A DNA stretch of 44,682 bases from Hahella ganghwensis DSM 17046 (GTDB lineage: Bacteria > Pseudomonadota > Gammaproteobacteria > Pseudomonadales > Oleiphilaceae), in the NCBI RefSeq assembly GCF_000376785.1, contig NZ_AQXX01000087.1, positions 1 to 44,682 of the forward strand, in the 5' to 3' direction. Below are positions 38,868 to 43,771 of this stretch, piece by piece (the stretch's first letter is position 1; each line of letters starts with the position of its first letter). The notes beneath the pieces were generated by a model. It was not told the DNA's origin, did no database searches, and saw only the letters and a program-made list of their open reading frames with translations. A program made the position numbers and the translations under genes.

Positions 38868-41843
38868 ATGAAACTGAACTTGCAACAGGGCCACTCCAAC
38901 TGGTGGGAAAGAGTGTGCCTGATGTTATTGCTGCTGGTGGGTCTGCCAGCTTATGCAGCACTAACCCCTTATCTCCAATCTCCCACAGAAACCTCCATCT
39001 GGGTGTCCTGGAAAACTGCCCAGGGTACTGAGTCAGTGGTGGAATATGGTCTCAGTGAATCCTCTTTGGATCAAAGTGTCAGTGGTCAGTATGAATCACT
39101 GGCTTCCGATTATCTCTACCACCAGGTTCAACTGATCGGATTGCAGCCGAACACGCTTTATTACTATCGGGTCAGAACCGGTAATGATGCATCTGACATC
39201 TATCGTTTTAAAACGCCGCCGGTAAAAGGCACTGATAGTGGCCATATACGCATCCTGGTGATGGGGGATCATCAGATACGTAATGAAAACCGTTACGAGC
39301 AGTTGGTCAAAGCGGCTAAAAGCAAGCTGGAATCCCTATATGGCTCTTCAATAGAGGAGAGCATTAACCTGATACTGAATGATGGTGATCAGGTGGATGT
39401 GGGGACACTTGATCACTATGAGAACCTTCATTTTGCTCAATCAGCGGCGCTTTCTCCCAATCTGCCGATTATGACCACTGTCGGTAATCATGAGTATTAC
39501 TATGACGGAAACCTGGCCAACTATGGTGCCCATTTCATCTATGACGGATTGAGTTATCAGGGCATTCAGGGTGCAGAGGATGAGAGCTACTATGCCTATC
39601 AGGTCGGACGAGTACTCTTTGTCCATATGAACAGCATGCGCGCGGATGCTTTGCAGCAAAACTGGCTGGGGCAGATTGTGACGGCGGCAGATGCCGACAG
39701 CTCTGTGGATTGGATTATCAGTGTCATCCACCATCCCTATCAGGCAGAACAATACGTCGGAGATATTTCCCAGACCTTGCGCGACAGCTGGATAAGTATT
39801 CTTTCCAGCACGCGTAAACATGTGCTGAATATCGGCGGTCACCATCATCTATATGCTCGCGGCCAAACCCGGGAGTGGCCCACTTACCATATGATTTCCG
39901 GTGGTACGGCCTGGGACCAATATTGGGGACAATCCAATGAAGTGGATTATGATGATGTTCAAAAAACCATCGCCAACTGGGCCTGGCAGGTCATCGATAT
40001 CGATATCGCCAATCGTGAGATGCTGGTGGAAACCTATGCGGAAGCACATCCCATTCGTTACAAATCAGAAGGCTTCCACTATAACAGCCGCCTGATCGAT
40101 CGTTTCCATCGAAAACTGGACAGTGTTGCTCCGATGCAGCCGGCGATCACTAACGTGATCAATGGACAGATCGCCTTGCCATATACCTTTGAAAGTACTG
40201 CTTTCAATACGGCGGATTCTGAGCAACTGAACAGTACTCAGTTTCAGATCGCGACAGAGTCAAGCTTCGATAATCTGGCTGTGGATCGTATCCGGGATTA
40301 TGAAAATATCTTCGGTGATACCGGGGCACCCTTGTACGAACCCGTGGATATCCATGAAAACGTGAATATTCTGAACTGGGAAATTCCAGCATACGGTCTG
40401 GCCAATGGTGATTACTACATTCGTGTGCGCCACCGGGACCGCAATATGGAATGGTCTGAGTGGTCAGATGCTGTGGCCTTTACTGTAGAAGGCAGTTCTG
40501 ATGGAGACCCAGAGCTGGTGCTGTCCAAAACGCGCTTCCAAAGCGGGGAAACCGTTGACGTTGACTACACTGGAGGGCGCGGCAATTCGAAAGACTGGAT
40601 TGGTATTTATCGCAAAGGTGAAACACCGAACGGTACTCAGGCGACTCTGTGGAAGTATGTTCCTGCGCCCAGCGGCTCTGTCAGCTTTGACGGACTTCAG
40701 GACGGCGAATACTTTGTCGGTTTTTTCGAGAATGACGGCTATAACGAAATTGCTGACCGGGTACATTTCTATGTTGGGCCAGTGGTCCAGTTAAGTTCGG
40801 ATAAAACCCAGTATTCAGAAGATGAAAACATTGTGCTCAGCTGGAGCGGTTCCGGAGCCGGCAGCAAAGACTGGATTGGAGTATACCGGATTGGTGACAC
40901 CCCGGGTAATCAAAGCTCCACCTTATGGAAATACACGCCTGACGGAAGTGGGAGCGCCACATTTAGTGGCTTGGCCAAAGGTTACTACTTTGCTTCTTTC
41001 TTTATCAACGACGGCTATTCAGAAGTTTCTGAAAGAGTCTTCTTTTCTGTCGGGGAAGAGATCGCAGACGTTACCCTGACGAAGGCCCGTTTCGAGGAAG
41101 CTGAAGATATTACGGTGTTTTTCTCCGGAGGTCCGGGCCATCCCAAAGACTATATCGGCGTATTTGAGCAAGGCGCAATACCAGGTCAGACAGGAAGCGA
41201 GTTAGTGTCTTATCTGTACTTTGATGGCGCTGTTAACGGCAGTGTGACCTTTACCGAGGATTTCCCTGTTGGTGAGTATTTTCTGGCAATGTACACCAAT
41301 GACTCCTATGACCAGGTATCGAATCGGGCCTGTTTTGTTATTGGAAATATCAGTGGTTGTGGTGATGGCCCGGCGATGGGTGAGTTGTCAGTAGCCGGTC
41401 AGGAGATTCCTGTAGGAGACGATGTTGTCTTGACCTGGGCTGACACGCCGGGACATGCCAAGGACTGGATTGGCATATACAACGTTGGTGAAGAGCCGGG
41501 CGGACCAGCCTCCACGGTATGGCAATACCTGCCTGGACCCGAAGGTAGTGTGAGGTTCTCCGGCTTACTTGTCGGTGAGTATTTTGCGGTGGTGTTGGCC
41601 AACGACGGTTACGACGAAGTGACACCAAGAGTGTCGTTTAAAGTGGTGGATGCCGTTCTGGAGGGAGATCTGAATAGTGATGGTGTGCTCGATGCAACGG
41701 ATCGTAACCAGCTACGTCAGGCATTTGGCCAGTGCAGTGGCGACAGTGAATATGCCGATGCTGCTGATCTTGACAAGGATGGCTGCATCACCATGCAGGA
41801 CTACCGTAGGTGGTTGGCGTTGTACCGCGCAAGCAATGGTTAG
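38868..41843 (+). CDS. secreted purple-acid-phosphatase-like metallophosphoesterase with dockerin
   Basis: 991 aa. Signal peptide about 12-30 (cleavage near AYA-ALTP). Then a purple acid phosphatase-type Fn3-like domain (31-118) and a calcineurin-like metallophosphoesterase (125-400). Its metal motifs are VMGDHQIR (Asp134), LNDGDQVD (about 170-176), GNHEYY (206-211), VIHHPY (286-291) and GGHHHLYARG (323-332). A linker/Fn3-like part (about 420-543) is followed by four about 90-aa beta modules (about 549-637, 640-729, 733-826, 838-927), each with KDWIGIY or a variant and ending in DGYxEVxxRVxFxV. The C-terminus is a dockerin with two Ca-binding loops, DLNSDGVLDATD (934-945) and DLDKDGCITMQD (967-978). 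Predicted to release phosphate outside the cell and dock on a cohesin; the next gene is a candidate. Confidence 0.9.
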   Translation: MKLNLQQGHSNWWERVCLMLLLLVGLPAYAALTPYLQSPTETSIWVSWKTAQGTESVVEYGLSESSLDQSVSGQYESLASDYLYHQVQLIGLQPNTLYYYRVRTGNDASDIYRFKTPPVKGTDSGHIRILVMGDHQIRNENRYEQLVKAAKSKLESLYGSSIEESINLILNDGDQVDVGTLDHYENLHFAQSAALSPNLPIMTTVGNHEYYYDGNLANYGAHFIYDGLSYQGIQGAEDESYYAYQVGRVLFVHMNSMRADALQQNWLGQIVTAADADSSVDWIISVIHHPYQAEQYVGDISQTLRDSWISILSSTRKHVLNIGGHHHLYARGQTREWPTYHMISGGTAWDQYWGQSNEVDYDDVQKTIANWAWQVIDIDIANREMLVETYAEAHPIRYKSEGFHYNSRLIDRFHRKLDSVAPMQPAITNVINGQIALPYTFESTAFNTADSEQLNSTQFQIATESSFDNLAVDRIRDYENIFGDTGAPLYEPVDIHENVNILNWEIPAYGLANGDYYIRVRHRDRNMEWSEWSDAVAFTVEGSSDGDPELVLSKTRFQSGETVDVDYTGGRGNSKDWIGIYRKGETPNGTQATLWKYVPAPSGSVSFDGLQDGEYFVGFFENDGYNEIADRVHFYVGPVVQLSSDKTQYSEDENIVLSWSGSGAGSKDWIGVYRIGDTPGNQSSTLWKYTPDGSGSATFSGLAKGYYFASFFINDGYSEVSERVFFSVGEEIADVTLTKARFEEAEDITVFFSGGPGHPKDYIGVFEQGAIPGQTGSELVSYLYFDGAVNGSVTFTEDFPVGEYFLAMYTNDSYDQVSNRACFVIGNISGCGDGPAMGELSVAGQEIPVGDDVVLTWADTPGHAKDWIGIYNVGEEPGGPASTVWQYLPGPEGSVRFSGLLVGEYFAVVLANDGYDEVTPRVSFKVVDAVLEGDLNSDGVLDATDRNQLRQAFGQCSGDSEYADAADLDKDGCITMQDYRRWLALYRASNG

Positions 41844-41913
41844 ACGAACAGGTATTCACAACAGGCGACAGCAAGTTGTTTAAAAGGTGTTGGAAGTTTT
41901 TAAGAGGTTTGTG

Positions 41914-42486
41914 ATGAAACAAATGAAACGATTATCGCGGATTATTGTGATTTTGGGGCTTTGTCTGACGGGGACGATGGCTCAGGCAGGATTGATAACG
42001 CTAACATCAAGTCAGCAGGAAGTTCTGGTCGGTGATGTCTTCAGTGTTGATGTGAGGCTCAATGATCCGTTTGACGGTGCGTTTTCTGGAGACGTGCTTT
42101 CAGGCTTTGGGTTTGACCTGATGTTTGATTCCAACAAGTTGTTTCTGGCAGGGAAAAATATTTCAGCTAATTGGGATGACGATTCAGATTTTTTTGCGGA
42201 TACTGATATCGCCGGATCCAACTTTCCGGGAATTGAAGATACCGGCCAGACAGATTTGCTGTTAGGCACGCTGTATTTTGAAGTACTCAGCGCAGGCCAA
42301 TTGATGCTGCAAATTGCATCTGATAGCCAGGCATCCTTTAACCAGGGGCTTTTCTATTTGTCTGAGGTCGTGGACTTCGATGCTTCGGTGACGTTGCAGG
42401 CCAATGAGGTTCCTGCTCCGGCATCTATGGGATTGTTGATACTGGTATTAGGGATATACCGCGCCAGATCATCCCGTCTCGATTAA
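41914..42486 (+). CDS. cohesin-like secreted protein with PEP-CTERM-type tail
   Basis: 190 aa. Signal peptide 1-25 (TMAQA-GLI). Residues 26-160 follow the cohesin-like beta pattern LTSSQQEVLVGDVFSVDVRLN...LSGFGFDLMFDSNKLFLAG...LLLGTLYFEVLSAGQLMLQI. The C-terminus is a sorting signal: VPAPA (166-170), a hydrophobic helix (about 171-182), then basic residues (Arg183, Arg185, Arg188). This is the PEP-CTERM type recognised by exosortases, which are not in the window. The ATG at 41914 is chosen because AAGAGG lies 6 nt upstream; a GTG nine codons earlier is possible. It starts 70 bp after the dockerin gene. Cohesin identity rests on pattern only. Confidence 0.75.
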   Translation: MKQMKRLSRIIVILGLCLTGTMAQAGLITLTSSQQEVLVGDVFSVDVRLNDPFDGAFSGDVLSGFGFDLMFDSNKLFLAGKNISANWDDDSDFFADTDIAGSNFPGIEDTGQTDLLLGTLYFEVLSAGQLMLQIASDSQASFNQGLFYLSEVVDFDASVTLQANEVPAPASMGLLILVLGIYRARSSRLD

Positions 42487-42538
42487 CATGGATGAAGGCA
42501 CCTGTGCAGTTTACCGGCTGTGCAGGTGATATGGATTT

Positions 42539-43771
42539 ATGAGAAAGCTGATATTTTTTTGGTTGTTTTTCGTTTGCAATGCCCAGGCTCACCTCTCGGG
42601 GTTTACAGACACTTCGATACAGATTGCCGAACCTGGCATCAAAATTATCTACACACTCCCCAGTGATAACCTGCTTGAATTGGATGGCTCGCCCGGGCTG
42701 GAAAATCTGGCAGATGTTGATGTAACTGCCGGTACAGATAGTGATTCATTCGCATCAGAAGCCATGCCACCGGAGGCTTATTCAAACGCTGTCGCTGATG
42801 GCTGGAAAGTTGATTCCCGTAAACGCAATTGCCACCTTGATGACCTCAAAGCGGTAAGACTGGATACCGTGGAATCTTATCAGTACACACTTCTGTTCTC
42901 CTGTCCTCAGGGACTGGATGATGTCGAAATATACTATTCTCTTTTTACCGAACAGTGGCAGGGGCATCGAAACTACAGTCGTGTCTATATGGCGGATCAG
43001 CAAATGCGAACCCGCTTTGCTTTTGATAGAAACAAGCTATCCGTACCTGTCATGCAGTTGTTGGCAGAGTGGGACCGGTCGTTGGATGAGCAGTTCTTTC
43101 CTGATGACCCCAATAAGGTGATCAAAGAACTGGCAAATGCCGATCAATCCTCCGCAGCTCTGGATACCGGGGAGGCGGCTATAGTTTGGGTAGATCCTGA
43201 GTCATCTGAGTCGGGTCTGGCAGATCCTGGATTTATCTGGATGGGAATGGAACACATCTGGGGTGGGATTGATCATGTCCTGTTCGTGATAGCTCTGCTA
43301 CTGGTTCCTGTATCCTGGAAACGTTGGTTGCTCTGGATCAGCCTGTTTACCGTTGCCCATTCGATTACGCTGGCGCTTTCCTATTATGACGTGATTGCAT
43401 TGCCGCCATCAGTGACGGAACCGCTCATAGCGCTAACGGTGCTGGCGATCGGCATTGAGAACATCATGGTGATGCGTTATGGCAATTCCATGCTGAAGTG
43501 GCGTACGCTGATCATCCCTGTATTTGGCCTGATTCATGGTGTCGGCTTTAGCTATCTGTTAATTGAGCTTGGTAGTGGCCTGCCCGCCGTCGGCCGACTG
43601 TTCTATTTCAATCTCGGGGTTGAATTGGGCCAACTGGCGTTGGTGGCAGCCTTATGTGCTCCTGTTGTTCTTCTGTTTCGCTGGTCCAAAGGCAAAGCTC
43701 TTGCGGGGATTCTTTCTGGCAATATCGCGCTCTTCGGGGCGTTATGGCTTTGGCAGCGTGTAGTGTTCTGA
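42539..43771 (+). CDS. HupE/UreJ_2-family membrane protein
   Basis: 410 aa. Signal peptide 1-17 (CNAQA-HLSG). An extracytoplasmic domain (18-230) is followed by a membrane domain (232-408) of about six helices. The signature GMEHIWGGIDHVLFVIALLLVP (His239, Asp245, His246) and the later FGLIHGVGFSYLLIELG mark the HupE/UreJ_2 family. Related HupE/UreJ proteins are linked to nickel or cobalt uptake, but the larger HupE/UreJ_2 proteins are uncharacterised. It follows the cohesin-like gene by 52 bp on the same strand and may be co-transcribed. A role in metal supply for the metallophosphatase is a guess. Confidence 0.85.
   Translation: MRKLIFFWLFFVCNAQAHLSGFTDTSIQIAEPGIKIIYTLPSDNLLELDGSPGLENLADVDVTAGTDSDSFASEAMPPEAYSNAVADGWKVDSRKRNCHLDDLKAVRLDTVESYQYTLLFSCPQGLDDVEIYYSLFTEQWQGHRNYSRVYMADQQMRTRFAFDRNKLSVPVMQLLAEWDRSLDEQFFPDDPNKVIKELANADQSSAALDTGEAAIVWVDPESSESGLADPGFIWMGMEHIWGGIDHVLFVIALLLVPVSWKRWLLWISLFTVAHSITLALSYYDVIALPPSVTEPLIALTVLAIGIENIMVMRYGNSMLKWRTLIIPVFGLIHGVGFSYLLIELGSGLPAVGRLFYFNLGVELGQLALVAALCAPVVLLFRWSKGKALAGILSGNIALFGALWLWQRVVF

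Follow-up and report, generated by a model that had tools for sequence, protein, structure and literature searches.

The window, by which we mean the whole stretch of DNA that was analysed, comprises positions 1 to 44,682 of contig NZ_AQXX01000087.1 of Hahella ganghwensis DSM 17046 (RefSeq assembly GCF_000376785.1), one of the contigs of a 6.56-Mb genome. Near its end lie three adjacent plus-strand genes separated by gaps of 70 and 52 bp, which code for a secreted phosphatase with a dockerin, a secreted cohesin-like protein with a putative sorting tail and a HupE/UreJ_2 membrane protein (Table 1). The open reading frame (ORF) calls match the coordinates of a first-pass annotation, made from the letters alone, which had proposed that these genes form a surface enzyme-display module. 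We consider it probable that the first two genes constitute a one-cohesin display module, to which this lineage has added the HupE/UreJ_2 gene. No promoter-like or terminator-like sites were found in the 70-bp and 52-bp gaps, which is compatible with a single transcript for the three genes.

A dockerin-bearing phosphatase and a cohesin-like protein

The 991-residue protein is a purple-acid-phosphatase-like enzyme (Pfam Pur_ac_phosph_N, 68 bits; Metallophos, 47.5 bits). The two-loop dockerin that the first-pass annotation had read at its C-terminus passes the curated cut-off of the type I family Dockerin_1 (PF00404), with 28.0 bits against 22.9 over residues 933-979. Dockerins follow a calcium-loop spacing rule, and both loops, DLNSDGVLDATD and DLDKDGCITMQD, are present and have the canonical spacing as read from the sequence.

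The cohesin-like ORF can start at a GTG codon at 41887, giving 199 residues (41887-42486), or at the ATG codon at 41914, giving 190 residues. Single-sequence searches of Pfam, NCBIfam and the PDB with the 190-residue protein yielded no cohesin match, nor did a search of the whole H. ganghwensis genome with Pfam Cohesin (PF00963). As the sorting tail also scores below its cut-off, both the 'cohesin-like' and the 'sorting tail' features are invisible to single-sequence searches. We used two family profiles, A1, built from 12 relatives (including L033, afterwards judged not to be a cohesin), and the broader A4, with 24 rows. Searched against the PDB at E≤10, A1 retrieved 16 hits, all of them cohesin-bearing chains, most of them weak and the best with E 6.2e-5; 13 are named as scaffoldins or cohesins and three are NagJ chains, two of which are titled as cohesin modules in the Foldseek listing. 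Six of the eight PDB hits of A4 at E≤0.01 are cohesins or scaffoldins. PF00963 itself has no match in the window protein; it matches two of the 12 A1 members (best E 4.1e-7) and five of 10 further family members at E≤0.01, two of which (L051 and L053) exceed the cut-off. The NCBIfam matches of the A1 members are chiefly sorting-tail models, with no cohesin model among them.

The AlphaFold model of the 190-residue protein, built from eight aligned sequences, has a predicted local distance difference test score (pLDDT) of 83.7, above 90 in the core, and a predicted template modelling (TM) score of 0.72. Foldseek matched it to 35 PDB chains at E≤0.001, 33 of which come from cohesin or cellulosome-scaffoldin entries; the other two are 9ifr (CLIPPER domain) and 8gsy (a pilus protein). 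The best match, 2vo8 (E 3.6e-6), has TM scores of 0.55 by query and 0.75 by target, and 0.55 is the maximum by query, with values often of 0.4-0.5. By prediction, the protein thus has the fold of a single cohesin, in line with the first-pass reading. In nine window-type sequences, conservation is higher in the strands presumed to make up the dockerin-binding face (0.68) than in the remaining ones (0.46). The family profile finds one cohesin match in the H. ganghwensis genome at E≤0.001.

Table 1. Genes and features of the phosphatase-cohesin locus, in positions of the window
Feature	Position	Strand	Basis
Secreted purple-acid-phosphatase-like protein with C-terminal dockerin, 991 aa	38868..41843	+	ORF call, Pfam
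Predicted signal peptide of the phosphatase, residues 1-30	38868..38957	+	By eye
Pur_ac_phosph_N and Metallophos domains, residues 36-327	38973..39848	+	Pfam
Type I dockerin, two calcium-loop repeats	41664..41804	+	Pfam, 28.0 and 33.1 bits, cut-off 22.9
Cohesin-like protein, 190 aa, ending in a PEP-CTERM-like tail	41914..42486	+	Family profile, AlphaFold, Foldseek
Predicted signal peptide of the cohesin-like protein, residues 1-25	41914..41988	+	By eye
Predicted cohesin domain	41989..42408	+	Family profile, AlphaFold, Foldseek
PEP-CTERM-like sorting tail (VPAPA, hydrophobic helix, Arg-rich end)	42409..42483	+	15.4 bits, cut-off 16; four relatives above the Pfam cut-off
HupE/UreJ_2 membrane protein, 410 aa, with N-terminal part of ~210 aa; lineage-specific third gene	42539..43771	+	Pfam, locus comparison

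Cohesin and dockerin genes as neighbours

Cohesin genes were gathered with cohesin queries, and their neighbours were then examined for dockerins. The searches covered 146 relatives (10 positive, two dropped), 369 genomes of the class (13 positive), 349 genomes of the phylum (11 positive, two dropped) and a set of named genomes (six loci, including those of metagenome-assembled genomes, MAGs, of Deltaproteobacteria and Nitrospirae). The resulting set consists of 41 ORFs matched by A4 at E≤1e-4 in the fetched loci; L062 and L063 (genomes G004 and G005) were counted once. A strict regular expression for two loops recovered only 25 pairs and was superseded by a dockerin hidden Markov model (HMM). 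Four candidates were set aside: L033 and L034, from the search of relatives, which share the signal peptide and the tail, and L090 and L091, weak matches of the phylum search in giant ORFs; none of them has an A4 match at E 10, and no dockerin was seen by eye in the gene upstream of L033.

A dockerin gene adjoins 38 of the 41 cohesin genes on the same strand, at a distance of at most 793 bp and within 160 bp in 37 of the 38 cases. By a rough estimate, the chance of finding a dockerin within 1 kb is ~0.16% per cohesin. The dockerin gene comes first in 30 pairs and the cohesin gene in eight, and the pairs involve 37 dockerin genes, two cohesins sharing one. They occur in Gammaproteobacteria and also in the Deltaproteobacteria and Nitrospirae MAGs, so that the partnership proposed for the window turns out to be wider than the window itself. 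A second cohesin of G002 (L117), not part of the 41, was missed by the search of relatives and was found beside a dockerin. An independent check with Pfam PF00404 gave 40 matches in 31 of these genomes, of which 23 lie beside a cohesin according to a hand tally.

The proteins that carry the dockerins are diverse. Among 30 partner proteins scanned (only the last 507 residues in the case of L049), 13 have hydrolase domains: phosphatases (the window, L020, L021 and L025), nucleases (L083, L084, L087 and L088), proteases (collagenase M9 in L085, reprolysin in L086 and subtilase in L052), a GDSL lipase (L060) and a glucuronyl esterase with CBM9 (L082). The other partners include a glucose/sorbosone dehydrogenase (L050), an IgGFc-binding protein (L056) and proteins with RHS, PKD or immunoglobulin (Ig)-like domains (L053, L054, L065 and L081); the remainder have little besides repeats or the dockerin. 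In 29 of the 38 pairs, the dockerin lies beyond 90% of the length of the partner; in L053 and L054 it sits at the N-terminus, and in L055 it is internal. In the related locus of G015 (L020), the phosphatase is only 24% identical to that of the window over 535 residues, compared with 47% for the dockerin end, 47% for the cohesin and 52% for HupE; we count this contrast in favour of the display module, as a probable exchange of cargo. That enzymes of several kinds and secreted proteins of other types are found in such pairs, in a range of Gram-negative bacteria, makes the pairing look like a general device for keeping proteins at the cell surface.

According to the computed sequence distances, cohesin and dockerin subtypes change together. 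In Mantel tests, the distances between cohesins are correlated with those between their dockerins: r is 0.76 across all 38 pairs and 0.57 when the 32 non-redundant ones are used, with p 1e-4 in either case. Host ancestry can yield such a correlation, and we therefore swapped partners within the genomes that harbour several pairs. Swaps in G001, G005 and G006 lowered r to 0.47-0.49; these genomes are close relatives and thus represent about one event. At a cut into five clusters, the cohesin cluster of the window, whose 13 members span Hahella, other Gammaproteobacteria and the Deltaproteobacteria and Nitrospirae MAGs, paired exclusively with one dockerin cluster and vice versa, and the second pair that these Hahella genomes hold was placed elsewhere. 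The adjusted Rand index was 0.24, 0.20, 0.67, 0.83 and 0.73 at three, four, five, six and eight clusters, respectively.

A number of observations weigh against our reading. Swapping partners in G015 caused a modest drop only (r 0.69-0.76), swaps in G618, G824 and G836 did not lower r, being neutral or slightly opposite, and six of 384 within-genome permutations, the observed one included, reach the observed r; the agreement at four clusters is within the range of 5000 shuffles. Every one of the 24 rows of A4 belongs to the 41 ORFs that this profile defines, the weak L061, which has no dockerin, was excluded from it, and genes next to cohesins served as the training set of the dockerin HMM. As for the fold, two of the eight A4 hits in the PDB, including the best one, are Ig-like tail proteins aligned over 27 residues. 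Three of the 41 cohesins have no adjacent dockerin, namely L057, L061 and one at a contig edge, and the gene at L057:7509-8159, clearly of the cohesin PEP-CTERM kind, belongs to a genome (G270) that has neither a dockerin nor an exosortase match. Conversely, 17 of the 40 Pfam dockerins have no known adjoining cohesin; three of these (L028, L118 and L119) were read with their surroundings and no cohesin was found, and three others are near the L058/L059 cohesins. Finally, a relative of the phosphatase in G349 (L106:1408-2874) ends in a dockerin (E 4.8e-5), and that genome gave no cohesin match in the class search.

The solitary L057 and L061 and the 17 dockerins without a known partner would be expected if the two proteins were co-transcribed surface proteins that do not interact, their cohesin-like and dockerin-like folds being stable modules and their adjacency reflecting shared regulation. 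The existence of two gene orders, the unrelated cargo and the matching of subtypes across phyla are hard to explain without contact between the proteins, and we regard an absence of interaction as improbable.

Some loci depart from the simple pair. At L058 (G356:C42), several dockerin genes lie close to a single cohesin gene, as though they shared it as a common socket. An LTD and exo/endonuclease protein with a dockerin and no adjoining cohesin is encoded at L028:4461-7067 (G000:C144); dockerin ORFs of similar size, counting those of L118 and L119, are found in six genomes of the genus, domains having been scanned in L028 only.

Sorting tail, exosortase and possible modes of display

The VPAPA-helix-Arg tail described in the first-pass annotation is borne out by the relatives of the window protein: nine of the 12 A1 members match the Pfam PEP-CTERM model at a lenient E≤10, L057 exceeds the Pfam cut-off, as do L049, L053 and L056 among 10 further members scanned, and by a simple rule a hydrophobic stretch preceded by proline ends 40 of the 41 cohesin ORFs. 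The tail of the window itself falls short of the curated cut-off of TIGR02595, with 15.4 bits instead of 16. It ranks ninth in its genome, behind eight other matches that exceed the cut-off, of which five have E≤0.001; this short model exceeds the cut-off in two of 14 control genomes too.

An exosortase was sought in the genome of H. ganghwensis, and one is encoded there (E 9.7e-57). In the class, exosortases are present in 11 of the 13 cohesin-positive genomes as opposed to 116 of the 356 others (Fisher p 2.3e-4), and four of the six named genomes have one, the other two being MAGs. Besides the low score of the window tail, two findings add to the points on the negative side: G283, counted as cohesin-negative in this contingency table, is cohesin-positive with the later profile and has an exosortase, and no exosortase was found in four of the 19 cohesin-positive genome entries scored (G270, G428, G834 and G835), which are drafts.

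Homologues of the window phosphatase occur in 12 of 321 genomes of the class, its own included; no direct PEP-CTERM tail was seen among the ORFs listed, but several loci have another ORF or an open end, and we draw nothing from this. In the proposed display module, the phosphatase and the cohesin-like protein would both enter the periplasm via their Sec signal peptides. The exosortase would then remove the PEP-CTERM tail of the cohesin, which we infer to be sorted to the outer surface or to the extracellular matrix. The phosphatase, without a sorting tail of its own, would be held there through binding of its C-terminal calcium-loop dockerin to the cohesin, presumably in a calcium-dependent manner.

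Holding might also occur without anchoring: the cohesin would bind the dockerin, and after exosortase cleavage the complex would be released or trapped in exopolysaccharide, so that the enzyme is kept in the matrix. This is compatible with the display module and shares its pairing evidence. In PMC10957091, the PEP-CTERM protein ZepA is reported in an exoproteome, which favours such an outcome. Against it stands locus L067:1184-5578, where the dockerin gene lies between an upstream PEP-CTERM cohesin gene and a downstream gene whose cohesin-like product lacks a tail and, as judged by eye, starts with a lipobox-like motif; the latter is possibly an alternative lipoprotein anchor, i.e. a membrane anchor. 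All in all, we hold release or trapping to be quite conceivable, if not the outcome that we would expect.

A bolder proposal, which we put forward tentatively and think rather unlikely, is that the cohesin is a sorting adaptor that provides the exosortase signal in trans, capturing dockerin-tagged proteins in the periplasm and carrying them across or onto the outer membrane. If so, one tag system would serve many unrelated and often very large secreted proteins in several phyla, including nucleases, proteases, phosphatases and RHS or PKD proteins.

The locus shares with clostridial cellulosomes the cohesin fold, the type I dockerin with two calcium loops and the mostly C-terminal position of the dockerin. 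In contrast with these systems, there is one cohesin per protein and no carbohydrate-binding module, the cargo is a phosphatase, the host is Gram-negative, the partner genes are adjacent and the tail is of the exosortase type, the anchors of cellulosomes being S-layer homology domains or sortase signals. It is thus not a cellulosome, as defined by a multi-cohesin scaffoldin, a carbohydrate-binding module and glycoside hydrolase cargo. Noncellulosomal cohesins and dockerins have reportedly been dealt with by Peer et al. 2009. Modules outside cellulosomes, including those of anaerobic methanotrophic (ANME) archaea, are described in the accessible parts of PMC5244752 and PMC9012536; unlike in those accounts, as far as these parts go, we found adjacent one-to-one gene pairs and a PEP-CTERM tail on the cohesin. 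The role of cohesins and dockerins outside cellulosomes is presented as an open question in PMC5244752. Similarly, the C-terminal motif, the hydrophobic helix, the basic end and the exosortase in the genome agree with the PEP-CTERM/exosortase (EpsH) system as set out by Haft et al. 2006 (PMC1569441), from which the locus differs in that its tail seems to act in trans, on behalf of a second protein. Our literature search, which left subscription papers mostly uncovered, found no work that joins PEP-CTERM with cohesin or dockerin, and prior publication is possible; dockerin and exosortase are both mentioned, in separate passages, in one paper on ANME archaea. A broader search brought up unrelated titles, titles on Gram-positive bacteria and a review on display, and as a control 24 papers were found that bring together PEP-CTERM, exosortase and the outer membrane.

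Natural partners of small size are available in these adjacent, mostly one-to-one pairs, and they come with unrelated cargo and with a sorting tail, which makes both binding specificity and the fate of an exosortase substrate directly testable. If the display module is real, Gram-negative bacteria would possess a modular means of display akin, in how it works, to a minimal cellulosome.

The HupE/UreJ_2 gene and other observations

The product of the third gene matches Pfam HupE_UreJ_2 (PF13795) at residues 232-379 (130.5 bits); its structure model (pLDDT 46) was too poor for a fold search. The trio is conserved in relatives, as the first-pass annotation had suggested should be looked for: six loci besides the window harbour it, belonging to five of the six other genomes of the genus (not G003) and to one other genus. 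These make up seven of 40 cohesin loci, and the gene is missing from the other 33. The HupE/UreJ_2 gene is therefore a lineage-specific addition to the cohesin-dockerin pair. Homologues were found in 60 of 369 genomes of the class, and nearly all of the matches listed cover the membrane domain only.

The first-pass suggestion that the HupE-like protein supplies or senses the metal is not upheld by this distribution. In an extended form of that idea, the trio would be a metal or phosphate acquisition unit in which HupE/UreJ_2 takes up or senses the metal of the phosphatase and the cohesin is incidental. Conservation of the trio in five further genomes of the genus and in another genus speaks for such a unit, as does the predicted start of mature HupE with a histidine (AQA|HLSGF in the window, 42539-42592; A-x-A|H, by eye), which is kept in the six other trio loci. 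Since 33 of the 40 loci have the pair, or the cohesin, without HupE, and HupE homologues elsewhere mostly share the membrane domain alone, we find an acquisition unit very doubtful. The same histidine start is present in two distant homologues (L094 and L098).

The phosphatase has a further feature between its catalytic domains and its dockerin. The stretch at ~40510-41640 (residues ~548-921) contains four repeats, whose D[WY]IG[IV] cores lie at residues 576, 668, 761 and 866. These repeats score 29.0 bits against Pfam SKICH, which has a cut-off of 23.4, and also match HECW_N; both families are known from eukaryotes. Elsewhere, four such cores are found in L019 and one in L021.

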